From positions 1,736,001 through 1,800,000 of the forward strand of contig NW_004457737.1 of NCBI RefSeq assembly GCF_000203815.1: a stretch of 64,000 nucleotides of DNA. Reading direction: 5' to 3'. Shown here in pieces: positions 432 to 54,600 of the stretch. The notes under the pieces are model-generated. The model was not told where the DNA came from. It saw only the letters and a list, made by a program, of their open reading frames with translations, and made no database searches. A program made the position numbers and the translations under genes. This DNA is from Cavenderia fasciculata. Lineage: Eukaryota; Evosea; Eumycetozoa; Acytosteliales; Cavenderiaceae. The number at the start of each line of letters is the position of its first letter. Position 1 is the stretch's first letter.

Positions 432-1504
432 TGTTGTTGTTGTAGTTGTTTTTTTGAATAAATTAATTAATTATTAAACAAAAAAAAATAGAATAGAATA
501 TTTAAAATAAACAAACAATTATATTAAAATAAAATGAATTATTATTAGTGACTGTCACTACTACAAATACACTCTTATTTTTAATCATCATTGCAATTAT
601 ATAATATATATAATAAATAGCATTTAAACATTTTGGTATCATTATCTATTCATACCCATGCTTTTTTTAAGAAAAAGAGAGGGGTTTAAAGATGTAATGA
701 AAAGAGACAAAGAGACTTCTACCTCTGGTTTCTTTTGGATATAGAGAGTACTCTCACATACCATAATAATTATATCCATGATAACACCAACATACATATT
801 ATCTATAGATTTTTGGAGGACAATTTGAGATATCTTTGTACCCCCCCTATTAAAAATAAATAAATAATAACAACAACGATAACAGCCAACGTTGGACAAA
901 CAACATTGAATAATATTACTACTTGGTTAACATTATTATTATGTCATACTTTTATTAAAGGTGTTTGAAAAAAAAAATATCATACATGGATACAGATTAA
1001 ATATTAAAATTAAACAACCAAAAGGGAAGGAAATTTCCAAGTGTAATACTTTGTTTGATGGGTATGGTTGAAACTTGGAAGCTGGAATATATGATTGATT
1101 GCAACTATAATATTTTATATTCTCTATCATAAATTCGCTATGGTAGTCTCCGAAATTGAAAAAAAGCAAAGTCAGGTGAAGTCGGAGAACACATAAAAAA
1201 AGCATATTAAAAATAGAGTTAGAGTTGCTGACCACCTATTACTTTTTGTTTGTTTAAAGAGATAAAGAGATAGAGAGAGAAGAGAGACATAACAACGAGA
1301 AAGAGAAAAGAGGAGAGAAACAAAGTTTAGTAACAATTACAACAAACTTCAAAAAAAGTTATCACCTCTTTTTGAATTCATTCATCATTCATTATTATTA
1401 TTATATAGTTTACTGGTCATCTATATATTGTTAATATAAATTATATATATATATATATAGATAAGAAAATAGTAGTTAAAAAGTGTTAGATAAAGATACA
1501 GGAT
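432..1504. other. Intergenic spacer between divergent genes
   Basis: About 1.07 kb of AT-rich DNA separates the left-edge membrane protein (minus strand) from the SK-like channel gene (plus strand). Minus-strand open stretches around 642-899 and 939-1235 have no convincing starts, splice partners or recognisable protein. AT dinucleotide runs near 1441-1462 sit just upstream of the channel start. Both promoters should lie here. I see no RNA gene. Confidence 0.5.
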
Positions 1505-3605
1505 ATGTCTAGAAGGAAGTTATTAATTAATCTTCATCGGATGAAAGATGAAGAACTTCACTTTAAAATATTACCTTCGACTACAATTGCATTGAATGCT
1601 TTCCACAAGTATGTGTGATATCTATCTATCTATATATCTACTACTACTGATCTATGAATACATTCATATTTACATTTTGTTTTTCTTTCTTTCTTTTCTT
1701 TTTAAAATAAGTGATTTAAATGATGTTCATGCAGATAGATTATTGAGAAATAGATATCTTTATATCTTTTTAAATGGATTGCTTGGTATAGCATTTATGA
1801 TTGTGGAATTACAAGTTTCATGGGATGGCAAAGCTATTGTCATTGATAAATCAACCAAAACCTTTAGAATATTAATCTTTTTCTCTACTTTGATTCTTCG
1901 TATGTATTGATTGAGAAAGATATAGAAATAACACTGGTAATCATAATAATAATACTGGTAAATATATATTAATATTTTTTTTAGTTTGTCAATTAATGGA
2001 TTACTATAGACTTTTATTATCACATACAACACATGGATGGTTGACAAAAAGAGCAAGAGGGTTTAGAGTAACACCTCTCAATGTGGTGAGATCAACTACT
2101 TTGGCACCACTCTTTTGGGCAGAGGTTGCCATTTGTATATTGCAGCCCATTCCATTTGCATCGGGTGACCTTGCTATATGGAACGATCCAAAATGGGGTC
2201 TCTTTATGTGGCTCAGAGTTTATATGTTTGGTAGAGTCTATAGAGATTTTAGTCATGTTTATAAAATTAGACAAAGTATTATTAGAAAGTAAGAAAGAAA
2301 ACAAATTAAGATAATATTATATCAATGTATTGACAATTTGTCTCTTTTTTTTCTTTTTTTATAGGTATAGAGATAGAATGGAGATTCCACCAAAATTTAA
2401 TTGGGCATTAAGTTTTAAATCACTTTTATTCCAACAACCATTGACTACATTTATACCATTTACATTGTTTATTATATTTATTTGTTCTCATATTATCTAT
2501 GTCTTTGAAAGAGAAGCTAATCCCGAGGGATTCACATATCCAGTATCACTGTTTATTTCATTCCTTAGTATGTTTACAGGTTGGCCAACTGATACCTATG
2601 ATGAACATAATCCTGCAACTATTTTTGGTAGATTTGGTGCCATTGTAAGATAAGAAGAAAACTTATTCCTCAATCAGACGGAAAGATACTTACTTATTCT
2701 TTTTTTCTTTTCCATTTTTAGTTATCATGTGTATTAGGTTTATTCTGTTTATCATGTTTAATTGAAAACTTTAGTAATTTAACTCATCCAACTCCACATC
2801 AAAGACCAATCTTGAATTATATTACATTATTGGAAACTCAAGAAAAAGAAAGAGATTCTGCTGCTAGAGTAACTATAGAAATAAGAAATAAGAAATAATA
2901 TTAATATTAATATTAATATTCTTTTTTTAGTTAATTCAAACAGTTTGGAGAAGATATAGATGGCAACATTCAAATAGTTTTGCAGATAATCATACAGTTT
3001 TTAATACTCAGGAAGCATACTTTTGTATGAAATATATTGAGGGGGCAAAGAACTTTGGTCGTTGTAGAAGATATCGTAAACAGATTGAATCAATTGTCAA
3101 TGATGGCAAGGGTAAAGAAGAAAAGGAGGACAAGAAACAAATAGAAACATTGCTCAAAAACTATGAGATTGAAAAACAGGTACGATTCTCTGTTGAACAA
3201 CGTGTCTCAACGATGGAAGAACACCAAGAGTTTATGATCCGACAAATGAACATACTTTTACACAACCAGCAACAACTCTTACAAGTACTTGGTCAAAACA
3301 ATATCCCTCTTCCTATCCTTCAACCTCCTCTTCCTCCTCCAGCTGTTAATATGCCAACTCATCATTCAGTTCAAGTTGAGCCATTGTTCCATCCCCAACA
3401 ACAACAACAACAATCTACCAGTAGTAGCGTAGGAACAGGTTCTAGTTCTCAACAACAAGGTTATTCTGAACAACAAGACCAACAGCAACAACAACAACAA
3501 CAACCATTTTACCAACAACCGTCATCGCAACATTCCTATGAAAATAGAAGTGAACCATTTGGTCATTTCTCGACATCAACATCAAGCAACGATAATAGCT
3601 TATAA
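1505..3605 (+). CDS. SK-type (small-conductance Ca2+-activated K+) channel homologue with a non-canonical pore
   Basis: Six exons join in frame: 1505-1608, 1712-1899, 1985-2288, 2365-2644, 2722-2868 and 2931-3605, giving about 565 residues. The order follows SK/KCNN channels: several transmembrane segments, an S3/S4-like part with LRVYMFGRVYRDFSHVY (SK2 has LRLYLIARV), a linker KFNWALSFKSLL, then S5, pore, S6 and a calmodulin-binding-type helix SAARLIQTVWRRYR near residues 335-350. A coiled coil follows (about 395-460), then a Gln/Ser/Pro-rich tail. The family opens K+ pores when calmodulin bound to this helix binds Ca2+. The oddity is the filter: where SK has FLSIGYGD, this protein reads FLSMFTGWPTDTYDE (about residues 264-278), so GYG is absent and a few residues are inserted. 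It is a confident SK relative. K+ selectivity, or conduction at all, is doubtful. Confidence 0.8.
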
Positions 3606-6013
3606 AAAATATCAATTAAAACCAATCAATTTCTTTTTTTTCCCCGACCGACCTCCAACACAATTCAATGACACCCCGTTAAAAATTAAAAATATTTTTT
3701 TAAAATTTCATTTTCGCTCTCCCAGACTCTCCGATGCGAGGCGACACACCCTTTTAAAAAGTTGAGTAGAGTGTTTTTTTTTTGTTGTTTGTTTTCTTTC
3801 ATCATCCCAGTCAAACTAATATTAGAAGAAGGTGAGAATTATTTATACAGTACCATCCCCCTCATTCATCTAAAGTAGTAGTAGGAATAATTATAATAAT
3901 AATAGTTTGAAACATTAAAAAAAAGTATACTTTTTTTACTTTATCGGTCGTTGTATACAAGTTGTTTATCATAATAATAATAATCGTCATAATAATATTA
4001 ACGAGAAAAAGAATTATTTCTCGTTTTTCAAAGATTGAACTTCCATTCATAATAATATGTGTATATCGGAACTACAAAGCATTTATATGTGGCTCAACAA
4101 GATTATCTATTCATTCAACCGACTTTGTAGAAGGCATAAAGGTGGAAGTTCATAAAACAAAAAAAAAATCAATTACTTTTAAAGGTCGTTCAATACGTAT
4201 TCAATTTACAAAACATACAAATTTATTTATTGCTGGTCAGAGAGAGAAACAAAAACAACGAGTCGTTTATTTGTGAATCTTTAAAGAACTAGAACTTAGG
4301 AAATAGAAAAAAAACATTTTAGAATCAATTTAGATTATTACTTTTTTTTTTTTCTTTCAGCTTTAAAAATTGTAAGAAAGAATAGATAATTGGATCGTTT
4401 TGTTGTTCATCATCAAATCAATCATCATTATTCCTCTTCCTCTCCCTTCACCAATACATTTATTATTAATATTTATTTTCATTGGGTGGGAATAAATTAA
4501 TTTATTCCATGGTTATGAAAAAAGAGGGAAAAAAAAGGTATCCAATATCAATTATATGTGGACAATCAGATAATAATAATAATCGTAAATAGTAATAATA
4601 ATAATAATAATAATATTTAATAATAATTATTACAATTATAATAATTGTTTCACTCTACTATTCACTTTTGAAATTCATTTTCCTCCTCATCATCATCATC
4701 ATCAACATCATCATCGTCGTGTTTTTGTCGAATATAGTATAGGATAGGATAGGATAGAAAAAGTAGGTAGTACCAATACAATGTTGTCATCGGTGATCAC
4801 AACAATGGCAAACAATAGAGGAGGATATAAATGGAATATATAACATATATAAATTGGATATGTGGATAGATAGGTTTTGTGGAAATGTACCGTTGAACAG
4901 ATTGCCGGCAACAAAGAGGCAAATCCACCATATTATTTATGATGATTGCACCAACTCACAACAAGACGATTACGATATTCTTCTTCATCCTCTGAAAGTC
5001 TAATAATCAATAGCAACAATGTATTATTATTGTTGTTGTTATATTCTCAAAATAAGAGGAAGAGAAGAGGAGTAGTAGTAGTAGTATAACAACAGGAATT
5101 CCTACTATCCAATCGATTTGCATGCAGAAATACAATAGTTACAAAAACTATCATTGTTGTAAAAATGTTTCGAGATTGTAGACATACCACCCACTCACCA
5201 CATATATACTCACTCACTCACTCACACCTACCAACAACCACACCCCTCCCTCAATTGAGTGTCGAGGTGACAAATTATTGCTGCTGTCTGTCTTTTTCTT
5301 GTTTTTTTTTTTTGTCTGTCTCTTGAATGAGCGAGATAGCAGAGCAGCTGTAACAACTAGATTGGTAACAGATAAACATAAAGATGATTTTTATGATGAT
5401 TTTTTATATTTAAACAAAAAACACCCACAACCAACCATTAACAACAACTAATTGTTGCCTCCATTCAACATTGTTCCTCCTCTTTTCCTTTTACAAACAA
5501 CCAAAATATTTATAAATGTTTTGATAAAACTCTATAAAACACCAACAAAAACAAAAAAGAGCATTGAAAAATTCAAACTTTTTTTAAGAGTTAGATTTAA
5601 CATACATCACAAATAATACTATTATATTATATTTTTTTTGTTTAAACAAATATATTCGAATTGGTATGTTTCAATGTTAATAGTAGTAATAATAGTGATA
5701 GTGATATCTATAATTGGCGAATATTTTGAAAATTGATCCAAGTGATCACATCTGCAAAAAAACATGTTTTTTTTTTATCGTCTTGTGTTTTTTTTTAATT
5801 TAAAACAATATTAATCATTCACAAACAAAAAGTATTAATTCCTTTTATTTTTTTTATTTCTATTCTATTTTAGAGACTTTTTTTCTAAAGTTTTTCAACT
5901 ATAATTCTTTTTTATTATTATTTTATTCTTGCAAGTATCCAACAAAAAAAGAATAATAATTTACTTTGTTATTGTATTATTACAACGACAATATATATAT
6001 AAAAGAAGAAGAA
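3606..6013. other. Long intergenic spacer with simple repeats
   Basis: About 2.4 kb of AT-rich DNA between the channel gene and the FSH hydrolase gene. It contains ATA/ATT trinucleotide runs (around 3885-3905, 3970-4000 and 4575-4640), a CACT repeat near 5205-5230 and GTA repeats near 5070-5085. An open plus-strand stretch at 3962-4276 has no ATG in frame at its start and no recognisable domain. I see no tRNA or other RNA gene. Confidence 0.5.
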
Positions 6014-7254: not shown

Positions 7255-8752
7255 TTATTTTTTTAAAAAAGAATAAGTAGAAAACATTCTTTGAATGGTT
7301 AATAATTTTTCATTGTTTCCTAAATGCTCGGATTCTAGGTCTTGAAGGTCTTGATGAATCCATTCTCTTTCTTGACTATTCTTGTTGTTGTTTAGGTGTT
7401 TGGCATAGTGTTTCATTCTTTCGATTAGAATGAGTAATTGACCATACTCTTCAAATGGTTTCTTTTGTTGTTCCAATAATGTCTTTTCATCATCGTTGAT
7501 CAAAGGTGGTTGATAGAGACTAATTCGATAAAAGGTTGAAGCTACTCTTGTGGTAATGGGAACAATTTGATCTGGTAGACTTGTATGTTTGGTGATTGTT
7601 AGTCTACGATGAATCGAACGAAGTGTTGATAGGATTGATTTTTGGGCATTGACTGTATTCTTTGATTCCTTGACAGAGAAAGAGTCATTGATTTTCCAAA
7701 TAACAGTCCAAACAATGAGAACCGATGGAATGGCAGCTAGTAATTGGAAATTGAGTTCATTGCTTTGAAGCAACTTGTCAATTGCCAACATGGCTCTATC
7801 AACATCGACCTTTTCCTTTTGTACTTGGATCAATGCCAAACGCAAAAAGTCACCAAAGAGAGCAGACTTTATGGGAGCTCTAATGTTTAGTTCATAGGGT
7901 TTCATAATGTCACTTAGGTCTCCAAGTGCTACTCGATGTACCAACGAATCAATTTCGGCTTGACTCATATTGGATTGTGTCTCTTTGCAGAAATCAGTCA
8001 CCATACGAGTAAGAGAGTCTAGTGAAGATTGAAGTGCCGCAGGATCAGTGACATTCATTGATTTCTGGTCATATCGAATGACATTCCAAATATTCAACAA
8101 TGGAGTTTCAATATGTTCTCTTGAGAATCTTCTCCAGGCTTGATAGTTTTCCATGACCGACGTTTTAAATTCTTGACGATGTGAATAAGCATAACGAGCA
8201 CCAAAGACAGTCAAACTAGTGCCAATTAAAATCTTTGACCAATTACGAACCATCCAACTTGGTGGTCTTTCATCTCTAATTGCATCTTGACCTCTTAGCA
8301 CCATTGATTGTATTGAAATTGTATTTTCTTTTAATAGATTAAATAAATCTTTTTGATGTTCTTCTAATAAAGATTCATTTAATTTATCAATGCTACTAGA
8401 TTGTGAATAATCACATTTCTTTTTCCATTCTTGATATGATTTTGCAAATGAATCTTCTTCTTCTTGTTGTTGTTGATTTTCATCTTGATCTTTAAATAAT
8501 AATTCACAAGTATCTTTAATTAATAATAAAGATTGATTTATACCAATAATATAATCTGATAGTCCAATGGAATTAGTATTATTATTGGTTTCACCATTTT
8601 CAAATAAACTTAATGAATAAGTTAATCTTCCAATGGCAATTGATAGATTTGAAGAGATTGTAGTAAGAGTCTTAATTCTTTTTGTTAATTCTTTAATTGG
8701 ATGAAGTATTGATTCTCTTTTAATTTTTGTTGTAGTTGAAGTGTTATCTTGA

Positions 8753-8786
<34 letters not shown>

Positions 8787-9663
8787 GATTTTGTTGATTA
8801 TCATTATTTTCTTCATCACTAATAAATTCTTCATCACTTGGATTATCATTTAATTCTTGTTGTTGTTGAGTATTGTTGTTGTTGTTATCATCTCTTTTAA
8901 AAATAGTTTTTTTAATATAGTTGGTTGCCTTTTTTTGGTATTGATTAAATGTAACAATTGAAGAATTGAAACCAATACTTTTGTGAAGAGTCTTTTCAAA
9001 AGATAATTTACTATTCCAAAGACTATAGTAATATTGTACCCAAAAGAATGGAGTTTTTTCAAATAGATACCAATAACGTGAGTCGGTTCTCTTTGTCCAA
9101 TAATCTTGAGCCGATGTAATCTCTGATTCAACCATCAACAACAAATCTACCAATAAAACCAATTGATCAACCACCAAATTTGAAAGTAATAGTTGTTTTC
9201 CAGTCTTGTAAGTGATTGTCGGGTTAAGTTCAGCTCTTTTGTTTGTACCAGGTTTTAAAAGGTCACCTTCACCAATCATACCATCATTACCATACAAATT
9301 TTCAAATGATTCAAGTTGATTTTTAAATGATTCAATCTTTTGTAATAATGGTTGAAAGAATTGTTGTTGACCTATTAAATTTAATATATATCTATTTCTT
9401 TTTTGTTCATGTTGATGTTGATGATGATGATGATGATCTGATTGTTGTTGTTGTTGAGTATTTGAAGTATAAATTGAAGAAGAAGTAGTTGAAGTTGAAT
9501 AAGATTCATTGACTATACTTGTAATAGCATTCAATAGTTTAATATCCAATTGATGATCAATGTGATCATGTTCAACATGTAAACAATCCCATTTCTTGAT
9601 TGATGTTGAATCTAAAAGATTCTTTTTAACTTGTTTTGCTTTCTTGTGAATAAATGATGTCAT
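7255..9663 (-). CDS. NCA2: NCA2-like mitochondrial protein
   Basis: A single-exon frame of 802 residues. The C-terminal half carries the NCA2 family signature: RPPSWMVRNWSKILIGTSL (hydrophobic segment), HIETPLLNIWNVIRYD, then APIKSALFGDFLRLALIQVQ and KVDVDRAMLAIDKLLQSNEL, followed by a second membrane segment AAIPSVLIVWTVIW. In yeast Nca2 is a mitochondrial membrane protein needed, with Nca3, for expression of the mitochondrial ATP6/ATP8 genes, and later work links it to the outer membrane. The N-terminal half has Gln, His and Asn runs typical of dictyostelids and only weak family similarity. The start MTSFIHKKAK follows a T/A-rich leader. It lies 148 bp downstream of CCDC93 on the same strand, with no sign of co-transcription. 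Confidence 0.88.
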
Positions 9664-9811
9664 AAGTAATCTAAATTATTTGTTTGTTTGAAAGATTACA
9701 ATGCGAATGATCATTCTTACCTCATATCGATTTTTTTTTTTGTGAACTTCTTCTTCTTTTATTTAGTTTTGAAAAATTTTATACATTTATTTATTATTTA
9801 TTACTTTTATT

Positions 9812-11820
9812 TTATTGAGCAGTTAATTCAGATAAAGTTGATTGTAATACTTCATTCTTACGACATTCTTCTTGGAATTCCTTTGTATATTTATAATAGT
9901 TTCTTTCTTGTTCGACAAGGGTAATGTATTGATCAGAGAGCGAGGTATGTTTAGACTTTTCGTGTGCACGTTTACCTTCACTCTTGCTCAAAACCTCTTG
10001 GATACCGGCGATGATATTGTCCATTGATTTGATAAACATTTCCTTGTTGGTTTTGGAAGACATGGCAACATTGTATTTGGTTTGGATCGATTGGAGGATG
10101 GAAAGTTCATTGTCGAGAAGCTGGCGCTTGTCATCCAATGTATTGTAGGTGGTATAGTATTGACGAGTCTCTGTGAGTTTGGCGTCGGATTGCTCAGACA
10201 ACTCGATAAATTGTCTCTGGTATTGAAGGAGTTCGGCACGCGATGGCAATTCATCGAGATAACGTTGGAGTAGTGAAATGTCACGATTCTTTTTGTTGAG
10301 TAGTTGTTTGAGTTTCTTGAACTTTTCGAGGTCGGCCTCGAACGCCTCTTCTATCTGTTGGCGACGTTCGGCATCGTCTTCGTCTTCGGCGCTACCGCCA
10401 CCACCCTTGACCAGCTCCTCAATCTTGGCCTTGTACTCGAGCATCTGCTTCTTGCAGCTGTCCTTGAACATTTGCTCTTGTGCCACCAACGTCTCGTTGA
10501 GCAGGACCAACGAACGCAGTGCTTGGAGCATCTTTGTGTTTTCGGGTGTTTCGAGAGCATCCAATTTCTCAGTCTCTGCAATGATACGCGCGTTAAAGGC
10601 TTGGCGCTTGGCAAGATCGTTTTGGAGTTGGTCGACACGCTCTTGCAACTCTTGACGAAGCTTGGCAATACGCTTGAGCTCTTCTTGGCGCTGGCTGATT
10701 TGTTTGTCGAGTGCTGCCACCTTTTGACGATGTAATTTCTCGCCCATCGCTTTTCCAGACGGACCGTCAACATCCATCTCTGAATAACGATGTGCGAGAT
10801 CGTTGATTTCGTCGGTCGCCACCACCGACTTTAAAATGCCACCACTAATCTTGTTGATCTTTTGACTGTCCACTCCACTCATACTCTTCATCATCTTTTG
10901 AATACGCTTCTCTTCTTCATCGGCTTCACCAGAGCCATGGCCACCATCCTTGTCTTGACCAAGTGCTTGTTCGAGTTTGGCAGCTGCAGCCGACTTGTCA
11001 CCACTTGAAGGTGTGACTCTACTTAATCTGTGCAGTTTACCATACTCTAACAATGTTTCTTGGGGTGTGGCTGTACTGCCAGTGGTGGCAGCCGCCTTTC
11101 TAAATTTACGTGATGGTTTGTATCTGTTTTCAACCTGATGAACAAATGCACACGAGGCATCTAAATTGGTCTTGGTTTCCTTGTCTGTGGGTGTTTGGAA
11201 CCCCTTGTTAAACATACTCTCTGAATAGATACGAAGAAGATCTCCAGTCTCTTCTCTTGTCTCTATAACCTTTGCAATCAACCATCTAATAATTGGGAAT
11301 AGATTTGGATAATTTAAACCTTGAATTTGTTGTGCTTGTAATGGGAATGGACATTTCATTCTTCTCAATGATTTAATTAATTCTTCTGACAATGCACTAG
11401 AAGATTTGAAGATTCGAGAGTCAGTATTTAACTCTTACAAACTACTAAATATATATATCTATCTAATATACATTACATTTTTTGTCTAATATTTGAATTT
11501 TCTTGAAAGAATAAATCACCATCTACATCTACATTGGAGGCAGTGATTGACCAAGCCATACCACCTACTACCTTGTCAAATGGAGATAGACCTTGAATAC
11601 GAGCACGAAAGTAACCACCAGTCACCAATAGTTCAATAATCTCTTGATACTTTTGTTCAGAGTCTGTATCCTCCATCTGAGACAATTCACCTTCTCTTGC
11701 ATTGGCAGGTGCCTTGACCGTTGATCTCTTTGTAAAACTACTTAGATCATTTGAACTTGTATTTGCATCATCTGCAAAGAATATACTCTTTTTCTTTGCT
11801 TGTTTTAATGTATCTTCCAT
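9812..11820 (-). CDS. ccdc93: CCDC93, subunit of the CCC/Commander endosomal recycling complex
   Basis: Two exons, 11820-11477 and 11396-9812, join in frame (QKIALSEEL spans the junction, as in human QKIALSEKI) for about 642 residues. The N-terminal calponin-homology-like module is clear: [32 protein letters not shown] and DLFFQENS. Next come [22 protein letters not shown] and long coiled coils ending in [33 protein letters not shown] and [16 protein letters not shown], all matching the human protein in order. CCDC93 works with CCDC22, COMMD proteins and Retriever to return cargo from endosomes to the plasma membrane. The coding sequence is markedly richer in G and C at third positions than its neighbours. 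It shares a 237-bp divergent promoter region with COQ9. Confidence 0.93.
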
Positions 11821-22438: not shown

Positions 22439-25400
22439 TTAACGATGTTGACTATTTTGTTGAGAACTTGAATGATTTTGTTGTTGTGAACTTGAATGAT
22501 TTTGTTGAGAAAATTTAGGTTCCAATTTTTGAAGTAAAGCAATAGTATTTGATTGTTCTTGTTCCTTTTGTTGAATTTGACCTTTAAGTTCTATACCACG
22601 TTGAATTTCTTCTTGTAAAACACGATCAACCTCTTTTCTAAACAAATAAGAGTTGTGTTTTGATTTTTTGTATTCTTCCAATAGATTCTTTCTTCTGTAC
22701 AACTCAATGTATTCTGCTGTTTCTGTGACTGGAAGTTGACCCAAAAGATATTCATCGCGACCATGATCCTTTTTGCCAACAGTTACAAAACCAGAACCTT
22801 CAATGATTTCTTCGTCTTGCAGTGTAATGATGGTTGGACAAGGTTTGTTTCTCTTGGAGAGGTAGTGTCTATACTCTAGAGCATCCTTGACAGTGTTAAA
22901 CACCAAAGTATCTCTAAACAATGTCCATCCCAACGTAGCTCTATATTGTTCATGTTTCTCTCTAAATTGTACTCGATTCACCAAATGTCCAACATATCCA
23001 TTAGATGGTGCTCCTGGGAATGGATTTAATTGTAATTTACCACCTTGTTGCGATTGTTGTTGTTGATGACCATTTTGTCCATTTTGTTGTTGATTATTAC
23101 TATAAAAAGCTTGAATTAAACTAATAGCAATAAAAGAAACACTACTACGACTATCTTTGTAACGGTTCATATAGGTTTGAAGTTTATCGTGAGTTGTGAA
23201 AATGACAGCTTCCATACGTTTGCCAAGGACACGAGCAATCAATTTAGATTCTGTTGGGTTGTCACAACATATAATCTCCATGACTAAACCAATGATACCA
23301 GTATCTTCGCCACCCGATCTTGCCAAATCTGACATTTCTCTAGAGATTTGATTGTTGGGTGTTGGGGCGCGTCGACGGTCCGTACGATTCTTTAATTCTT
23401 CCAAACGAACCGAATCTTCATTGATAAATCTCTTTACTTCCTCTGGATTGTTGGATTGTTTGCTAAAATCGGGAATGTATTTTTCGAGTTTGGCAAGTAA
23501 ATCTTCAGATTGATCACGCATTTGTTCTTTTTTGGTTCGAGATATTTGCATGTTGAGGGCAGTTTCCTCTTGCATTTTACGGAGATCGGCAATCTCTTTG
23601 CCCAGAGCGACACGACGCATTTCAAGTTGTGACTTTTTGTCAATGTCTTCTTTGAGGTTGCGGAAAAAGAATTCCTGTGATCGAATGGGTGGAATCTTGC
23701 CTCCAGACGCTTCAAAGACGAGTTGGTACGCTTCAGAGAGACCAATGTTTTCTTTGAGGGCGATTTTGGGAAAAGTGGCGTATCCAGTGGCCAAATCAAA
23801 CGATGATAGGTATTCTTGAGCCAAGACGGGCATGTTTTGGCTCTGACTGTCGGAACGAGAGGCAACGAGTTTGATTCTGACGGCACCCTTCATACTGGCC
23901 GATATTTTGTTGTCATAACGATCAGTGGCGTATATTTTGAGGTCGGTTGCGAGGACAGACGATGTTTCTCCGCTAATCTGTCCTTCGATGGCCATCTTGG
24001 CAGGTGGGTCGGGCATGATGAGAAGAGTGGCACCCAATTCAATCTTGAGACCACTGGCAGTTTGATACACGAATCGAAGAGGATGTTCACCAGCCTTTCT
24101 AAAGGACTTGGCACCGGCAAACACATAGACTGATCCATCTTCATCGGTCTTTTCACAATCGATTGTCTTGTGGTTCATCACCAAATGAACATTCTCCTTG
24201 GCGACAATCATTCTCATACGTTCGGCATTGAGAAGGGCTATACGGATCGGTGGCAGATCCATGTTGGGTTGAATGACCATTGGATCTTCATTGTAGAGGT
24301 AGATAGACATACCTCCCTTTACCGTGATTTTCACAGTGGCCGGTTTGATGGTAGGTAATTGTGTTCGTACTGTCATCTCGTACACTCCATCTACACTTGT
24401 TAGAGCTACATTCTTTGTTGATATCAGTCCTTGACCTCCCTTGATGATAGTTTTACGTTTCACTACAAAGGGAGTTTCACGAGAATCTGCCCATTCACAA
24501 ATGAGTTCGACACCATTGATGGTTGGTACTGTATTGCCTAGAGTGTCACAAATGGTGACTTGGAAGTCCTCAATGTTTTCTCCATGACAACAATTAACCG
24601 ATACCAAAGATAGACCATTGATTTTGACTGCCGATGCCGATCCTTCAATCATTGTGAATCGTAATGTATATTCTGATATATTTTTGTTACGATCAAGTAC
24701 TGTCAGCGCCAAATCACCATAACCAACCATCACCAATTTACAAGGATACATTTGTTTGTCGGGGTCAAATTCTCCGATATGGGTACTCTTGATTTCCATT
24801 TGAGAGTGTGGTTTGTTGGCAGCATCGGGTTGTGCAGCCAGTTCAAACACTGGTTCAATGACAAATTGTCCACGAGAGTCGGCTGGTGTAACCGTGTTGC
24901 CACGTTTGTCGTGTAGACGTAATTCCAAAAACACCTCTGAATCACATCTAATCTTGGTGGTGGTACCACGACCAAAGGTTGCGAAAAACGATGATGGAGT
25001 GCCACCAGTAGTCTGAACTGAAAAGTCACACTTTAATTCTGCCGTTTTCTTGGTCTTGCTAGATGGTACTGCGGTGGCTGCTGTAATGGGTAGGGCAGCA
25101 GTAACAGAATAGATAAACGATCGTGTCATCTTGTCTGTGATCAGCTTTGGTAGAGTAAACATATTGTTTAGATTCATTTCCATATCTTTAGATGATTTGG
25201 GGTCCCATGATGCTGTGATCTTTCCATCGAGACCACTCAATTCAAAAGGACCACGACCACCACCACCTGCACTATACACTTTGAGTCCAAACAATAGTGT
25301 TGATCCTGCCATGGTACGGAACGATCCATCGTCCATGGTGATTGCTAGATTGGTTTCACCTGCGCTAATTGGTTCGATACGCAAACATGCTGGTTTGGGT

Positions 25401-28197
25401 GATGGCAAAATCTTTAGATGCTTTTCACAATAGAATATTTCCTTTTTGTCAAAATAGTAGGTAAATTGAACGATTGAAGTAGAGTGAACGTCAATATCCA
25501 TTGGTTGTGGAGCTAGTTCGAATGGGAGGACAACCTTTTCTCGAATAAACAATGCTTTACTGTCACCAAATGTAAAGTCACCTGTCACTGCATCACCAAC
25601 CACCATAATATCTTCATCCAAAACTGCACTAGTTACGTGAATGTAGCTCGATGGTGGTTGATTTGCATTTTGTTTGACACGAGATGACCTTTTGCTTCGT
25701 TGTGATGATACCGATGTATCATTCTTTTCACCACCAGACCCTGGCACAAAAATATTTCCACTCTTGTCCTTGAGGAATACCTGGAACGATGGAACATAGG
25801 AAAGGTTCTGATAAGGTGTTGGGAATGGATCATCATAAAATGACATGGTAACTGGTGGACCAGAAGTAACACGGATTGGATCCAACATACAAGTATAAGT
25901 TGTCAAACCATCAGTACTTGGTATTTCTACAAACAATATGATTCTTTCTTCTGACTCTTCACCCAAATCTCCTTGCATAATCTTGATATCTTTTAATATT
26001 AATCTACCATCTTGATCAATTAATATTGATATTGGTCCTGATATCACAACTCCTGGTAATTTCTTTCTAATCATCTTATTATTATTATTATTTTGATTAT
26101 CTTGACTATTATTATTATTATTATCATCAATTAAAACTTCAGCAGAATATTTTAAAGATTTTGGATTTGGAGTGTTGGAAAAGGGGACTGAATTTTTTTG
26201 TTCATCAAGTAGAGTGATGACAACAAGTGGAAATGGTGATTCTAGACAAATTGAAAGATCTTTTTTCTGTTGTTCTTTTGTCAAGTCAAATGAAGCAATG
26301 GCACCACATTCCTTGCCATGAATGACTTTGGCATAATGAACGGCTGGAGAAAGTCCAGGATAGTTTGATGTAAACGTAAACTCGTATGTACCAGCACGTT
26401 TAAATTCGTCAATATCTTTGAATGACATTCTACCACCTTGATAAAATAGAGATGACTCTCTTGTGAATAGTAGTTGCTCGGGACCACCCTGAGGATTCTT
26501 GTATTTGATGGTGAGGGTAATTAGAATCTTTTCAGAATCAATCATACGCTTCTCTACCTCTTTGGGTGGTTGTTGGCTATCGAGCAACTGAATCGACAAC
26601 CATTTAATATATTCTCCAGAATTGTATTCTCTTTTGGGGAGTGGTGCACCATCACCTTCATAAATCTTAATCTTTGATGGGAGTTTGGATTTTGCAGTAT
26701 CGAGTAGCTTTTTAAATTCGGCTGGTTTGAGTTTTACTTTGATACGACCACAAAGATGTTGTTCAAGAGGCATTGGTTTAAAGTGAAGTTTTTCATATTC
26801 CATGAAAAAGTCGCCGGTACGTTGTTCGAGAGTACCTGGGAAATAAATGGATTTGATGGTTCCATGAGAGGTTGGTTTGGTTGTCAGTGTGACATGTTCT
26901 TCATTATAATAAGTAACACCATTAAATGAGATGGATTTACAATAGGTACGATTAAAACCAGAATCATAACGTAAAAATTCAAATTGAAAATCTTGATCCA
27001 TTTTGTGACATCGCTTGAGCCACTTTTTCCACTCTGTATTGTTTTGACGTGTTCCTGCCTTTTCCAAATTTGAAAAGATTTGATGTTCCTTGATAATATG
27101 CATCTTGTTGTGTGTCACTGGGAATGAAGATCCTAAAAAGATGGCACCTTTTACACGTTGTACCCACTTTTCCTCGAGTCTTTCACCATCTACAATACCA
27201 ATCGTCATGAAACCAAGACGATCAATATGAGCCTCTGAAATGAGTCTACCATTCCAAAACACTTCAAATCCAGGTTTTCTAAGTGTCAGAGGGAATGTTT
27301 CCAATTCTTCAATAGGATGTTCTCTTTGAATGTGATAGGGAATGGGAAGTGTTTCACGTTCATTAATGTAGGGAAAGTAACGTAAATGAACCATTACCAT
27401 CGAACTTTCACCATCTACAGTTGGAACACGCAATTCAAATGTTTTTAATCGATGTCCAAATTCCAAATACAAAGATTCCATATCACCTTCTACCTTTCCA
27501 AGATCGACATTGTTTAGTGAAATATGGTAATCCATAGGCTTGACTATTTTGGCTGGTTTTGGACTATCTTCATTATCCTCTTCACCACTTGATTCACCTC
27601 CACTATCATCCATATCTTGTGTTCCTAAATTGGGTGATGATTGTTTCTTTTTCTTTTTCTTTGCTGCCGCCGCAGCAGCAACTTCATCATCGTCAAACGA
27701 ATAGTGAGAGGTGCTGGCAGGATCAGCATGTAAATAATAATAGTAAATATGAGCCAAATCTCTTTGTAAATTGATCATGGTATCGGCAAATGAGGCGTCG
27801 CTAAACATTGAAACATCGGATATTGTCACTTGTGTGAATTGAGGGTGAGCCAACTCTTCGTAGGATGCCTCACGCACTGTGATTGGAATTTTCCATTCCT
27901 GATCTCCAGTGGCACTAAGAATATCCAAAGAAATCTTGGCCTGATTCACCAATTTACTACCTTGTACTTTGGTAATAACTGTAATCTCTTGACCCAAATA
28001 AAAAGCAGACTTTTTTGCTCCAACTCCAAATCTTGAAATCAATCCAGTAGTTGCTGCTGAACTAGGTGTTGACGATGACGTTTTCGTCACAATTTGATTC
28101 ATATCTATTGAATTTGCTTGACTCATACCCATTGTTGCCCATCTTTGTAATTCTTCTTTATTCATTCCTGATCCATTATCCCAAATTATTATACTCT

Positions 28198-45647: not shown

Positions 45648-48600
45648 TTAATTTGTGATTTTTTTTGATAATTCGATTAAAGTTGATTTGAAACGTTTAG
45701 CCTGATCATTGGTATCAGAGATTTGAGAACTAAATGGTTTTAAAATATCAAAGAGTTGAGAGATTTGAGCAGTGGCATCTGCATTGCCACTCATAATTTC
45801 AATTGATTTGAGTGAATCTGTAAGGTTTGACATATTCTTTTCAATCTCTTCTGTAACATTATTCATTGGTTGTTGTTGTTGTTGTTGGTTTGGATTAAAA
45901 TCTGTCAATGTAGAGTTTAGAGAATTAATACTAGCAATCAAGACGTTGATTTGATCTTCAACGATTCTAATGACACTAGCCAAAACTTGATTTGATTGAT
46001 TGGAGAGGTAATGTTCAATCTCTACAAAGAAACGTTTGACAGTGGCGAAAAAGTCTTGGTGATGCGAAAGAGTATGTGGATTGGTGATGGCAAATAATAC
46101 AACCGATGCCTTTTCTTCATCCTTTAGATGGATTGGGTTCTTTTGAGCCAATTCCACCATGGCAACATAACCACGATCCAATCCAACCGAAATCATCTCT
46201 TTAATCAACTTTAGAATAATGGTGAAACCTTTGTGTTGAACTGGTGGTTGATTGGTGTTTTGCATTGCCAAATCAACAATACCCATCATTTGTCCATAAA
46301 ATTCTTCAAGTTGTAATTGTTGTTGATTTACTCCAACCAATATAATCTCTTGAGAATTTTGACTATTATTATTATTTTGATTATTATTGTTATTTTGATT
46401 TTGTTGTTGTTGTTGTTGTTGACTAATATTTACAGGTTGAGTATTCTTTTTGTTTAGACAATCTGAAAGAATGTTGATCAAACCAATTGGAGATTCCAAT
46501 GCAATAAGGTTAAAGATTTTAACAATATTTGATGCATACATTGGTTGATTTTCAAAGAATTGGAAAAGACTTGTTACAACAAATTTGAGTTGAGGATTGT
46601 TTGGTTCCCAAATTGAAACTTGAACGTCGTCAATCTTCTTTTGTTGTTGAGGTGGTGGTAATTGAACAACATTTTCTTCACCTGCAATACCATCAATTAT
46701 AATTGCATCCTTTGGTGATGATGCTGATTGAGGTGGAGTATTTGTCATCGTCATATTATTATTATTTTGATTATCTTTTCTAACTAAAAATAAAATTCTA
46801 TAGATTAGATCCAACATTTTAATATTGATACTTGGATCATATTGAAGACATTTAGATTTGAGAGATTTGAGAATGGCTTCAATTGGGATCCATGAACTAT
46901 CAGAATTAATACGACAAATATTGAAAAAGAGAGCAGCGTCACGTTTCTTTTGGAGGATGAGCAACATGAGAGGAGCAAGATGGGGAGGATAGTGGGAAAA
47001 GTTGTGGAAGCTGAGACAAGAAGATAGAATCTTGGTCATTTGCTGTGGGTACTTGACGCTAAAGTATTCAGTCATTTCAAAGAGCCAACGGGCCGATTCA
47101 GCATACTCTCCACACTCCAAGTAGATATAGTTGAGTGCCCAACAATAGTTGTTGTGTCCACACACGTTTTGGGCAATCTCTGGTGACACTTTGATCAGTG
47201 TAAACAAGACACGATAGAGATAGGGAAGTGACTTTGCATTGTACAACTTCAAATCCTCCTTTGGTGAAATACTGATGAAATAGTCCATCAATTTGGTGGC
47301 AAATGGGTTGGCGAGGAGGATCTTTAGATTCTCTGGGTGGTCTTGGATCATGGTGGCTACAAAGTGCATCATCTCTTGACGGTTCTTTTCAATGGCTGCA
47401 TTGATCGTGATAAAGACGGAAAGAATCTTGAGTGCATTCTTGCTAATGTCTTTGAAAGTCTCTTTGAGCTCTGGATCATTGAGCAAACAAAATGTCATCA
47501 ATTTGATATAGGATTCGTAGCGGTTGTAGATACGTGATTCCTTGTCGTTGCCAGTGACAACATTCTTGACGTCTTGGAGATTGCTGACCAAACTTTCATA
47601 GAGACGACGGATTTGACCGAGTTGGTTGTCGGTCAATTGTGGATAGATAAAGTCAGAACCACCGGTCGATGTGTAATCCAACTCTGTAAACTCAAACATG
47701 TCTGTCAAGAGATTGAATGCATCGTTTCTAACGTCATACGACTCATTGACCAACCAGTTAAAGGCCCATTCGTCCAAGTTTTGTTTGAACCATTGCTTGA
47801 CCGATGGCTTGCTCGATGCCAAGTCAATGATCGACTTGGTGTAGGTGGCATAGGTACGTTGCTTGGCCATGCTACCGGCATCGTCGAGTAGATTAATGTA
47901 GGCTCTAATGGCACGGTCACAACGTTCGTATTGGAATTCATCGTCGAGTTCAATGAGTACAAACAAGGCGTCGAGTGATGAACGATTGTCAAATTGTTCA
48001 ATGGCGCCAATCAATTGGAGTGAGTAGTCGAGGTCACCATAACAGAGATGGGTAATAATCTCGTTGGTCGACTTTTGTTGGATCTGGTCACGCAATGTCT
48101 TTACGATAAAGGCTGGATTGATCAACATTTCATAGTCGTCGTCGTTTATGTGAATGAGTGGATCATTAAAGCAGGAAATGGCCTTGTCTGCGTCGAGTTG
48201 GCTAGTGTACTTGGTGTGTGCCGAACGACAGAGAATAGAGATGGTCTCTAGCATGCCTGCATACTGTGGTTGTGCATACTTGTCGCCCATCTTTGTCTTT
48301 TTTTGGTGTGGTTCGCGCATTGGTGATTCCTCTCCCATGTAAAAGTCAATCAAGTGCAACAATACATTACGGTTCAACAAAAGAGCACGTTCCTCCCATC
48401 CAACAAGTGAAAAGTCTCTGATAAATCCAAAGTATTGTAAAAAGTTTTTCCAATAATTGGGTGCATCCTTGATAAACTCGAGATAGACATCGAGGAAATG
48501 AGCAACCAATGATTTGGGTATCATATCTTCCTCTTCTTCTTCCTCTTCTTCTTCTTCATCATCACTATTGTTTGGTGACAAATCTCCAATTCTAATACCA

Positions 48601-51600
48601 TCATCCTTTGCAATAATTGATTTTAATGGTTTCTTGTCCAAATCCATTGGTTTTTCTTCTTGCAACTGTTGATTAAAACCTTTTTGACGATGTGCTCCTA
48701 CAACTTGTTGTTGTTGTTGTTGAACTGTTGTTGGTGTAACTATATTATTACTATTATTATTATTTCTAGTTGGTTCAAAATCAAGATATTGATGTCTTTC
48801 GGTTGGGATTAAGACATTTAAAACATGGAAAAGAATCTTGGCGAGTGATTCTCTTGGTTCAGTAGTGATACAAACCAACATGTTTTGTTTAATCCAGGTA
48901 GGATTTTCAATGATGGTACTGAGCAACCATGCACAGGCATCTGGATTGCGTCCGTACATGCGAATGATATGATCGACAAAGTCTGGGAGTGGCTTTCTTT
49001 CCTTGGAATGAGAGATGGTTTCAATGATGAAACGGGTACCCAGCTCGATTGCCATCATTGATTGGTCAAATGGTTGTGACAGGCGAATATTCTTGGGAGT
49101 GGTGGCGATTGGATCAATACGCAACACTTCGGCAATAAAGTTAAAGTAACTCTGGTCAAAGATATTCTTGTCATTGAGGAATTTCATATTCTTTTTCCAC
49201 ACTTGATTGAAAATGTCTTGTGGCACCAACTTGCTCTGTTGGGTGGGAGTGAGGTTTTGGAAGTTTTGCTTGGCTCCCAACGACTCGCTGTATCCAACAC
49301 GTTCATAAAACAACATGTAGGCATTGTTGTAACGTGGAGTGGGACGTCCCATGATACCCTTGTCGTTTGGTTGGTCATAACCACCAAAACATGCCTTGGC
49401 AATATCCTCTGGGTTGAAAATCTCGGTCAATTGATCATTGAATTGAATCCAACGTCTCTGTTGACCAGATGCTGGATGTGGTTCACGTTCCTTGATAAAT
49501 GAATAATAATGACCTGAATCGGCTGTACCAGAATGAACCAAAATACCAGATAATTCATATTGATAATATGATGCTGGTTTCATTTGTGGCAAAGATTTCT
49601 TTTCTTCTTGTAGTTCAGCAGCTGCTGGTTGAGTTGAACCACTTTCACCATTTTCACCATCTTGTTGATTTGATTGTTGTTTTTCTTTTTCCTTTTCAAT
49701 TGCTTCCTTTCTTTCAAGATATTCTTTAGTGTAGGGAGCCATATCGAGGGTCATTGGGAAACGAAGAGCATCATTAATCTTTGTACGACGCATTAAATCC
49801 AAATCAAATTCGAATCTCTTGTTGTGAAGAATAAGAGTGTTTGGAAGTTGTTTGACACAACGTCTCATCAAACACTTTACCTTTTGAGAGCATTGACTAC
49901 AAAAGTACTTATTGTCACCGTCAAGTGTTTCACTTTCAACAAACAATTGCAAACTCTCTAAAATGTCACGTTTGTTCTTTACCTCTACACTGACAGTGTA
50001 GAATGATTCTTCACGTTCCGATACGTGTGGACATTCTTGAGAGATAAACTGGTTGACAGTGCTACCACCGAAAAAGTCATTGAGCAACTTTTCATTTTCA
50101 GTGCCTTTGAGTTGGTTCTCGAGACGGTCAAAGAGCATGTTGAAAAACTCGTCGACATCCATCTGAATGTAGACATTGATGGGTTGGCCGTCATACTTGT
50201 AGGCTGTGCAAAAGTCTTTGGGATCGTGTGATCGCTTTTCAGATTCTTGGAGGTTGGCAAAGATGATCTTGAGTTGTTGGAGCAGACTCTCGTTGGTTGG
50301 GTTGACTTCGTCCGTCTGTAAAATCGAATAACGGAAAGCGGGAATCATAAACAACTGTTGCATCAACGAGTTGATGTAGCAGGTGGCACCCAAGTTCTTG
50401 AGACCGACATAGCCACAGCCAGACTTTTCAGTGCCGGTTGGCTGATAGTTCCAGAGTGCTCTCTTTTCATCTGGCTTGTTTTGGAGGATGAGAAGTTGGA
50501 CAAGACGGGAGTAGTTTTCGGCACAGTCCTTGGCAAGCTCGAGAAGCAACGTAAAACATACATCTCTGCTCTCCTTGGTCTTGCACTTTGGTGGACAGAG
50601 TGGACCGTGATTCTCGGCAGTCGCAATGTCAAACAGGCATTGGTGGAAGATCTCGCCAACCAAATCTTGATTGAATCCAGCTTCCACCTTGAAGGTGTGA
50701 CTGGCACGAACTAGCGTAGTCACCAATTGGATCAATCCAATGATTACTTGGTCGGGTTGAATCAGATTGTTTTGTGTCTCGACGACTGGATGCTCCTTGA
50801 TCCACTTGACCAAGTTGTTGAGTAGACCAGAGTACTGGTCGATAATAACCTGCTCGGGTTGGATTGGGTGTGATGGTTGTGATGATCCACCAGACAACTG
50901 CTGTTGTTGGTGATAGATATGGTTGGGTTGACAGCTATGTGTGAGCAATCTACCAAACAATGTAAAGAATTGCGACGAGGTAAACGAGTGCTTATCCGAT
51001 CCAACAGTCTCTTGCACAATCTCGAGACATTTGCCAAGGAAAAAGCTGTGTGCCTGATCGCTGGTGGAACAGAATTGATCGAGACGGTTAAAGGCGCAGT
51101 CACGAACCGACACGTCCTTGCTCTCTACAAGCAGCAAAAAGATCCACTTGCTAATATTGGGACGCTTGCAAAACATCTCCAACTGGTCAGGCAAAGCCAA
51201 CAACGAGAAGATGAGCCACATGAGGTTTTGAATAACCTCTCCATCATCGGTGAGGAAGTGGTGAAGAGTAAACTGCTCCTCTTCTTCCTTGGTCGTCTCT
51301 TGTGCCTGGTTCCAGGTGAGGTCAAGCAAACGTGACAAAAAGTGAGAGGGTGGTACGCCGAGCAATGTCAAATTGATCATATAGTTTTGGTCATACAACA
51401 TTGGAGTGATGATGGTGAGCAGCAGAGTGAGACATTTCTTGCGCTTGGGTCCCTTGGACTCGTGTTGCAAGTCGACCGTCATGAGGATATTAATCAACTC
51501 CTTGAGACCTCCACTCTCGATAAAGTGGGCACGCCATTCGGCACCCGAGGCAAAGCGATCGATGATCAACAACGTGTACAACAACTTAAAGACAGACTGA

Positions 51601-54600
51601 TGGTCAAGCAACTGCTCCCAGTTGATACCCGAAGCAGCTTCATTGGTAATCGACGACAACACGTCTACAAAGTGACGATTGACTGGCAACAACATCAACA
51701 CCTCCCAAAGAGTAGGTGCAATCGACTCGATCGACAACAATGAAAAGAGTAGTGAGAACTTGCTCTGGTCAAAGTCCAATTGGATTTGATCGTCATTTTG
51801 GGTAAATGCACGTGGTTCGCTCATTTCATTGACCAAAATAGTGTCTTGGTTGCAGACACGGTAATCATCCAACGTCTCCCAGTCGTGGTGCATTGGCTTG
51901 CTCTGATGGAACAGTGCAAGACAACCTGGGTGAACCTTGAGAATGCTACCTAATCGGTTCTTGATTTCACCAACTCGCTCGCTTGCACGAACTTGAAGTG
52001 TTTGTCTCATCTTTTGGTTGCTAAAAGTGACATTGATCGATGGAGCAAAGCATTTACGGAAAGAATCAGATACAGTACCACCATAAAATTCTACATAGAT
52101 TTTCATCAACGATAGAATTCTCATTACCGTACTGTTTCCTTCTCCACTCTTTGCACTTTCCAATGGAATTTCTGATAGTTTTTTCATACAAAATATTAAA
52201 AATTCTTCTTTATGATTTAATGATCGAATCTAAATAAAAAAAAAAATAAAGGAAAAAATTAATAAATATTTTTCTTTTTTCTTTTTTTTTTTTTTCTGTT
52301 CTTCTTACATATTTATACAAATCAATCAAGAATGAATTAGTTTCTTTACCAACTTCTTCATTTTTTGATTCTAATGCCATTCTCCATAAAGTGCCAACAC
52401 CAATCAATTGAGATGTTTCATTGGTAATATTATTATTAACTTGTTTCATACAAGTAATATATAATGATGCACCTGATTGTTCTAAATCAACAAATGAAAT
52501 TTCTTCAAATTTGTTTAAAATATAAGTTAAATGTGATTCCTAAAAAAATAAAAAATAAAAATAAAAAGAAAAGGAAATTAATAACTTTTTTTTTCTTTCT
52601 TTTTCTTTTCGATTTTCAATTTCTTACATTTAAATTATAAAGACATTTTTCAGTCCATTTAAAGAAAGTATCACGATCTTTTGGAGAGATTGGATTAACA
52701 ACAAATACTTGCCAAAGAATATTAAGTTGTTCATTTGTGATTTGATAATTTCCTTGATCGAAAATAAAGTAGAGGAAATTGAGATAATCATTAATTTGTT
52801 CAAAGTGATTATGTTTTCCTTGGAGGACGGTTTCACAGACTGAATGGTCGACTCCATCTACGATCATCATCTTGGAGATGGCAGCCTCACACTCGGACTT
52901 GTAGTAGGTGAGGTGTTGGAAAAAGATGTGAATCAAATGGGTTTGTTCATCGACTTGACGAATACAGTTGGCGGGGATGTCTTGCATGGACGGGGCTTGT
53001 TGGTTACCACCCATCATGACCATGGTCCCAGTGTTGCCACTCTGATATCTCTGTGAACGGAGACGATCACTGTGTGTAATGATGATATTTTGAATGATAC
53101 GAAGCGAGTAGAGAACAGTGGTGTGGTTCTTGATATTGTCGACACACTTTTGAAGATACTCGGTGCGATACGACGAGTGGAAGTTGAGAGTCTCTTGGAG
53201 ATGGTACAAAGCCTGTTGTGCCAACTCTAACGAAACCTCACTGTCATCCTGGATGAGCATCCAAAAGATCTCAAGACCTCTTGATACAATCGTTTGATTT
53301 TGTACCAATGAAGTTGGTGAAGGTGGTTGAGATGATGACTGTTGTTGACCTTGTTGTTGTTGTTGTTGTTGAACAGACGAGGAGGAAGGTGAATAATTGG
53401 GAGAGGACGAAATGTCACTGTCGATGGCATTGATACTGTTGTAGTGGTGAGTACGATGCTGGGTGAGACACGAGATGAGTTGCAGGGTTTGGTTAGTGTA
53501 TTGCGAGAGTGGAATTTCCTTTATCTTTTGGTACAAATACTCGACTTCGCAGAGTGGCAACACCTGCGAGATATTGCCGATGGTTTCATAGATTACATTC
53601 TCGATGGTCTCGTGTTTGCCCTCGGCGGCATTCCACATGAGATCAAGATACTTTCGTTCAAAAACTTTCTTTTCTACAAGGAACTTTAATATATCTGTAC
53701 ATTTTTGTAGTAACTGCATATGCATCGTTTCACCATATAAAATCTCTACAATCTTATTTTCTTTAATCCAATTTACCAATTTCCTAAAGAATCAAAAAAA
53801 AACCAAATAGATTAATATATATTTTCTTTTTGTGTTTTCTATTCTATTTTTTTATACATACTCTTGAGAAATTGTGTTTCCTTGTTTATACATTAAATAA
53901 CCTTCATTGATTTTAGTATACTTGATGATATCATTTAAACCTGCATTTCTCTTTTCGAGTGATGGTGATTTGAAACATTTGAATGCAACATCCAAGCTAA
54001 AGGTTTGAATGATATCTGCAAAACGAGTTTGATTGTCGGTAGTGTTGACAATGATACTATTAAGATACTTTATAATCAGATCCATATCTTTTTTGTTTTC
54101 ATTCTTAAACTCTTCATCACTGGTTCCAAGTACCTTGCTAAATACAAGCTTTACAAATTGTTCAATATCTTGTTCAGTATCTTGTGTTTCCATTTTCTTT
54201 GAATACTAAATAAAAGAAAGAGATGTGAAAAAAATGAGATAGAGAGATAGAGAGAGAAATGATTAATACTATATCTTTCTATCTATCTATCTTTTGTTTG
54301 TTTTTTTTTTTACCTTTTTAATAATATTTAATAATTTCTTTAATGTATCAAAAGAATATTTATGAACTTTGATCTTTTCTTTAATTAATTCAATACCACT
54401 AAGTTGACCAAAATAATGAATTAAATTTTCAGAGATCTAAATATATAAAAAAGATAAGAAAGAAATCAATATTAATATTCTTAAAAAGAACCTGATTGAT
54501 TGTTTTTTTTTCATTACCTTGTTTGGAATGCTCTTTTCATTATTGTATTCATTTGAAAATCGATATTCGGATCTTGTGTATGGTTTTGGTGAAAATAATA

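Follow-up and report, generated by a model that had tools for sequence, protein, structure and literature searches.

An SK-type channel gene in Cavenderia fasciculata without the K+ selectivity signature in its pore loop

Although the GYG filter is a hallmark of K+ channels, a gene in the stretch of Cavenderia fasciculata DNA analyzed here (the window: 64,000 nucleotides of contig NW_004457737.1) was described in a preliminary account as encoding an SK-type channel in which the signature GYGD has been replaced. Loss of G-Y-G, whether or not accompanied by an insertion, should prevent formation of the row of carbonyl K+ sites. This locus thus raises the questions of whether its product truly belongs to the SK family, what occupies the place of the filter, and what such a pore might do. 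The assembly that carries the gene comprises 30,995,898 bases in 21 contigs. Its low G+C content, its short introns rich in A and T, and the many homopolymer runs in its proteins are in keeping with a dictyostelid.

As in the preliminary description, six exons (Table 1) can be joined in phase, and splicing yields a 565-residue product that contains no stop and remains open across the pore. All five introns run from GT to AG, are 62-103 bases long and have a G+C content of 11-27%. The accompanying claim that the gene is not a pseudogene artefact holds to the extent of these open frames and regular introns, but no further.

Table 1. Positions of the SK-like gene and its features in the window
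Feature	Position	Strand	Basis
Whole gene, 6 exons	1505-1608, 1712-1899, 1985-2288, 2365-2644, 2722-2868, 2931-3605	+	Splice consensus and frame
S1-S2, residues about 36-105	1712..2007, interrupted by intron 1900-1984	+	Shuffle test, residues 46-110
S3-S4, SK-type P.P and LR.Y...R motifs	2122..2235	+	A1 columns invariant with SK2 and IK; z 2.7-3.6
S5 end and turret, FEREANPEG	2504..2530	+	ER invariant with SK2 and IK (A1)
Predicted pore helix YPVSLFISFLSM	2537..2572	+	A2; covered by helix 58-71 in a low-confidence model of exon 4
Probable insertion FTGW, pore helix/filter junction	2573..2584	+	Gap in 7/7 canonical pores of A2
Filter site TDTYDE, for TVGYGD/SIGYGD	2588..2605	+	Y on Y in 7/7 pairwise comparisons; A2
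S6 start PATIFGR (SK2: PNTYCGK)	2612..2632	+	P, T and G invariant with SK2 and IK (A1)
Intron 4	2645..2721	+	GTAAGA..TAG, 77 bases; splits S6
Calmodulin-binding-type helix SAARLIQTVWRRYRW	2857..2963, split by intron 2869-2930	+	z, A1 invariants

The predicted protein appears to be SK-like by descent, although divergent, and the SK-family ancestry proposed earlier is borne out by two comparisons. When residues 1-461 were searched against the PDB, entries for KCNN2 or KCNN4 took ranks 1-12 of 30 with E values from 1.1e-7 to 0.0032; the top match was a KCNN4/KCNN2 chimera, and the best alignment spanned residues 52-398. The first matches outside the KCNN group were KCNQ5 (E 0.012) and, later, MthK (E 0.16). 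Moreover, residues 46-400 scored z 16.7-20.7 against SK2 and IK (150 shuffles each). Identity to these channels is 23-24% in a three-sequence MAFFT alignment of the predicted protein, SK2 and IK (A1), and the Pfam SK_channel profile (PF03530) gives 22 bits (E 1.8e-4), which is below its cut-off of 31.8. By alignment, the protein shares with KCNN2 and KCNN4 the six-helix plan, the S1-S2 region, the S3-S4 motifs and, probably, the calmodulin-type helix; it differs in carrying TDTYDE with added upstream residues where they have GYGD, and in a diverged S6.

This similarity is unevenly distributed along the protein. The S1-S2 region (residues 46-110) reached z 8.7 against the SK2-type sequence, with none of 400 shuffles scoring equally well, and 3.4 against IK (3 of 400). 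Values were 2.7-3.6 for S3-S4, 1.1-2.1 for the S4-S5 linker and S5, 0.2-1.6 for the pore loop, 0.6-1.3 for S6 and about -1 for the coiled-coil tail, although z scores of such short stretches have little statistical power. In register, identity of the pore loop to SK2 and IK (27-29%) is no lower than that of other regions (18-29%), and SK2 and IK themselves share 50% there. The sole region falling below the rest is S6, with just 12-17% identity compared with 75% between SK2 and IK; the 95% shared by SK2 and IK in the last region is due to the IK tail of the chimera. When only the part from S1 to the S4-S5 linker or only the part from S6 to the tail was searched, an SK or IK entry was on top in each case, with best E values of 0.85 and 0.23, respectively. 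Because the separate parts match so weakly, SK kinship rests on the whole length of the protein.

The preliminary description also held that the calmodulin-type helix is retained. Pairwise comparison agrees, in that residues 314-400 score z 6.0-6.5 against IK-type sequence, with SAAR, Q, W and Y invariant in A1, and the helix includes a partial IQ motif, IQTVWR. However, the Pfam CaMBD profile (PF02888) is not listed for the protein at E values up to 10, a range in which HMMER filters discard most weak matches.

No G-Y-G is left in the pore loop, in agreement with the loss of GYGD in the preliminary description, and TDTYDE stands at the site. A motif of the form G[YFLWIVM]G is absent from all plus-strand frames of positions 1400-3800, and GYG is absent from the two other plus-strand frames of about 2500-2660. 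Hence no exon in that interval can restore the filter, and a hidden or alternative GYG exon, the escape anticipated earlier, was rejected. The quoted string GRFGAIV needs correction, since its final V derives from the intron donor and the spliced protein reads GRFGAIL.

Which residues face the missing filter is less certain. The earlier description had TGWPTDTYDE (2576-2605), with a few extra residues, in place of GYGD. Replacement and addition both stand, but the register is a less likely one, as it is TYDE rather than TGWP that lies opposite GYGD in every alignment made (HMMER, A1, pairwise comparisons and A2, the last an alignment of the predicted pore with seven canonical pores). These seven are SK2, IK, MthK and four pores from the same genome, designated L032 to L035. 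The tyrosine of TDTYDE pairs with that of GYGD in all seven, which makes a register with TGWP on GYGD less likely, although the margins are only 3-10 points, the tyrosine pairing itself raises the score in each comparison, and two of the seven (L033 and L035) score no better than shuffles. Across the pore region, z was 5.4 against L032, -0.4 against L033, 1.8 against L034 and -0.2 against L035; the value of 8.5 against MthK is inflated, because MthK was picked after being the best PDB match of the pore query. A2 gives the same register with a single gap, opposite FTGW, and only the filter tyrosine and the proline that follows it are common to all eight sequences.

The place and size of the insertion depend on the alignment. 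Four added residues are FTGW in A2, in the HMMER alignments with IK and in the pairwise alignments with L032, L033 and MthK, and TGWP in the PDB alignment of the pore query with MthK. Five are added in the pairwise alignment with IK, where the first glycine is matched, and seven, with a five-residue counter-gap, against SK2 (A1 and pairwise); in the best PDB alignment the added residues appear as two single gaps. From the ER at the end of S5 to the filter tyrosine there are 31 residues here, 29 in SK2 and 27 in IK, a net gain of two to four. The earlier equation of FLS (2561-2569) with the FLS of SK channels is found in the two alignments with SK2 but not in A2, which places these residues within the pore helix. 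Pairing the two FLS strings with SK2 costs a seven-residue gap plus the five-residue counter-gap, and A2 costs one four-residue gap. A low-confidence structure model of exon 4, made from the exon alone and from a single sequence (mean pLDDT 64), has a helix at exon residues 58-71, YPVSLFISFLSMFT, which would fit a pore helix ending near the insertion. The likeliest change, as judged from these alignments, is thus from TVGYGD or SIGYGD to TDTYDE, combined with a four-residue insertion at the end of the pore helix; the exact register and insertion are likely rather than certain.

A filter of the Cav type was considered as well, given a visual likeness between SMFTGWP and STFEGWP of Cav1.2 domain III. 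The comparison lent it no support: z was 1.6, with 46 of 500 shuffles scoring equally well. No Cav channel was among the PDB matches of a 65-residue pore query at E values up to 10, where MthK alone was matched. A 30-residue query returned no match of any kind and hence does not discriminate with respect to Cav.

Other K+ channel pores are encoded in this genome. At least four have an intact GYGD (C1:2042872, C3:2700436, C14:3358415 and C18:509060), and these are of the BK/Slo type, with Slo-like RCK/BK domains in the same frame (L035) or no more than about 1.3 kb downstream (L032-L034). One of them, L034 (G000:C14:3358415), has the filter TDGYGD, with an aspartate before the first glycine in place of the usual valine or isoleucine; an aspartate at this place is thus found in an intact pore too. 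The pattern T-x-G-Y/F-G-D/N had 19 matches in the genome compared with 11 in the reversed control, and all 19 were read in frame, three being channel pores by eye. A second filter pattern gave 15 matches compared with 8 in its control; all 15 were read, and four are channel pores, of the BK/Slo type. Among eight matches to PF00520 (Ion_trans), one is the L032 pore, and no SK-like character was seen in the other seven, which were read; T/S-x-G-Y/F-G-D/N was found in none of the five PF00520 loci scanned.

The genome yielded no second SK-like gene in a search of low sensitivity, which proceeded exon by exon, scored only the best candidates and, when queried with human SK, did not recover even the gene at 1505-3605; a divergent partner may have escaped it. 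The genome search with PF02888 had no matches, and neither did its controls, which makes it uninformative. The sole genome match to PF03530, at C13:540871, is weak (E 0.024) and was set aside, as the open frames around it are without channel features by eye. Relatives of the SK-like protein were found neither in viral contigs nor in prokaryote genomes, and among the open-licence Dictyostelium and Amoebozoa papers listed, no title is on a dictyostelid SK channel.

We tentatively favor, as the likeliest of several readings, that this SK-family protein works as a cation channel under the control of Ca2+/calmodulin and without selectivity for K+. We infer that it would assemble as a tetramer of six-helix subunits, be regulated by calmodulin on its C-terminal helix as SK and IK channels are, and conduct cations with little regard for K+. 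The pore loop would no longer form a K+ filter, with TDTYDE in the place of TxGYGD and a few residues, probably FTGW and amounting to about one helical turn, added before it. The two aspartates and the glutamate from each of four subunits might draw cations toward a widened pore mouth. Arguments for this reading are the SK/IK kinship along the whole protein, the filter register, the lack of a GYG exon and the intact frames and introns. In addition, the BK/Slo-type GYGD genes, at least four in number, can provide this genome with Ca2+-activated K+ conduction. Against it stand the poorly kept S6, which could reflect decay of the pore, the subthreshold Pfam SK_channel score and the unlisted CaMBD.

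Channels with altered filters in other organisms offer partial parallels. NirBac1.1 and NirBac1.2, as described, have unrelated pore-loop filters on a K+-channel scaffold and are poorly selective conductors of monovalent cations (PMC4607889). The likeness lies in that combination and provides a precedent for the favored reading, although these proteins are bacterial, of the Kir type and outside the SK family, and the reported failure of NirBac1.2 to pass Ca2+ counts against that reading (PMC4607889). The nearest precedent in sequence is the GYX group of kinetoplastids, which are KCa2/3-like proteins with a broken filter (GYSD, GYSE or GYRD) that their authors consider likely to be non-selective or non-functional (PMC3283738). 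Those proteins are reported to keep GY and to have lost the second glycine (PMC3283738), whereas no G-Y is present in the pore loop here.

Alternatively, the protein may be a non-conducting pseudo-channel, in which an SK-type scaffold serves as a membrane Ca2+/calmodulin sensor and the pore is permanently closed. This is possible, though we think a non-K+-selective cation channel somewhat more likely than a silent protein of this kind; the two are ranked first and second on the grounds that the low-sensitivity search found no GYG-bearing SK partner. G-Y-G is gone, the pore loop and S6 are unremarkable in the comparisons with SK2 and IK while S1-S2 and the calmodulin helix stand out, and a single filter change, Y313A, is reported to have ended TcCAKC activity (PMC6974456). 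However, the pore outside the filter still resembles that of a K+ channel in the comparison with L032, though not with L033-L035, and its identity to SK2 and IK is no lower than elsewhere; a dead pore need not keep such likeness.

A silent or modulatory subunit that depends on a conducting partner is unlikely, and is the weakest of the three roles offered in the preliminary description, the others being conduction of another ion and a non-conducting sensor. TbK1 of T. brucei, a relative of calcium-activated-type K+ channels, lacks the conserved filter by the description in its paper and needs TbK2 for significant currents (PMC6974456), and the GYX genes of Leishmania and T. cruzi are described as lying close to genes for canonical homologues bearing GYG or GFG (PMC3283738). 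In contrast, no partner comparable to TbK2 and no SK-like paralogue was found here, which makes a subunit of a GYG-bearing SK channel less likely within the limited sensitivity of the search, and the four G-Y-G-D pores that were found are of the BK/Slo type.

A decaying gene or an assembly error, to which the diverged S6 might point, is still less probable, given six in-phase exons, no stop and regular introns; moreover, since no plus-strand frame of the region encodes GYG, a simple frame slip fails to explain its loss. Least probable of all is a pore that remains K+-selective through an unusual filter, for although TDTYDE retains a tyrosine and a threonine at the filter start, and TbIRK, which likewise lacks the classical signature, is reported to have a K+/Na+ selectivity above 7 and thus may count against lost selectivity here, TbIRK is of the Kir type and keeps glycines in its GGYVG, the alteration of one of which lowered selectivity (PMC5429665), whereas both GYG glycines are lost here in the favored register.

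An SK scaffold that has its calmodulin end but no filter would offer a test of whether calmodulin gating can be separated from K+ selectivity. Should the protein pass other cations, the cell would be depolarized rather than hyperpolarized by the same Ca2+ signal. In its most specific form, which is a speculative and rather doubtful proposal, the only SK-type gene found in this amoeba would encode a cation channel gated by Ca2+/calmodulin whose filter, FTGW-PTDTYDE, resembles that of neither K+ nor Na+/Ca2+ channels, and which depolarizes where SK channels hyperpolarize, so reversing the sign of Ca2+ feedback. Cases of filter loss are known from kinetoplastids and bacteria, and a social amoeba would be added to these.

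Several other genes were noticed. Elsewhere in the genome, at L041 (G000:C13:188633), one open frame (1381-3375) encodes both a RhoGEF domain (E 6.9e-45) and an Ion_trans-type stretch (E 2.6e-7). It contains an S4-like run of arginines, mostly at every third position (RTARVARIASRLSRVARI), with no pore by eye, and is possibly a voltage-sensor-coupled RhoGEF. On the minus strand of the window, an open frame of 1918 residues (22442-28195) with matches to SMCHD1_S5, HATPase and SMC hinge represents an SMCHD1-like gene. At 45651-53791, also on the minus strand, a large frame for a ubiquitin hydrolase, with UCH, DUF3517 and ubiquitin-like matches, adjoins an ARM frame of the USP9X/UBP24 type, and the two are perhaps one gene. 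The adjacent NCA2-like and CCDC93-like frames at 7258-11434, on the same strand, are ordinary.
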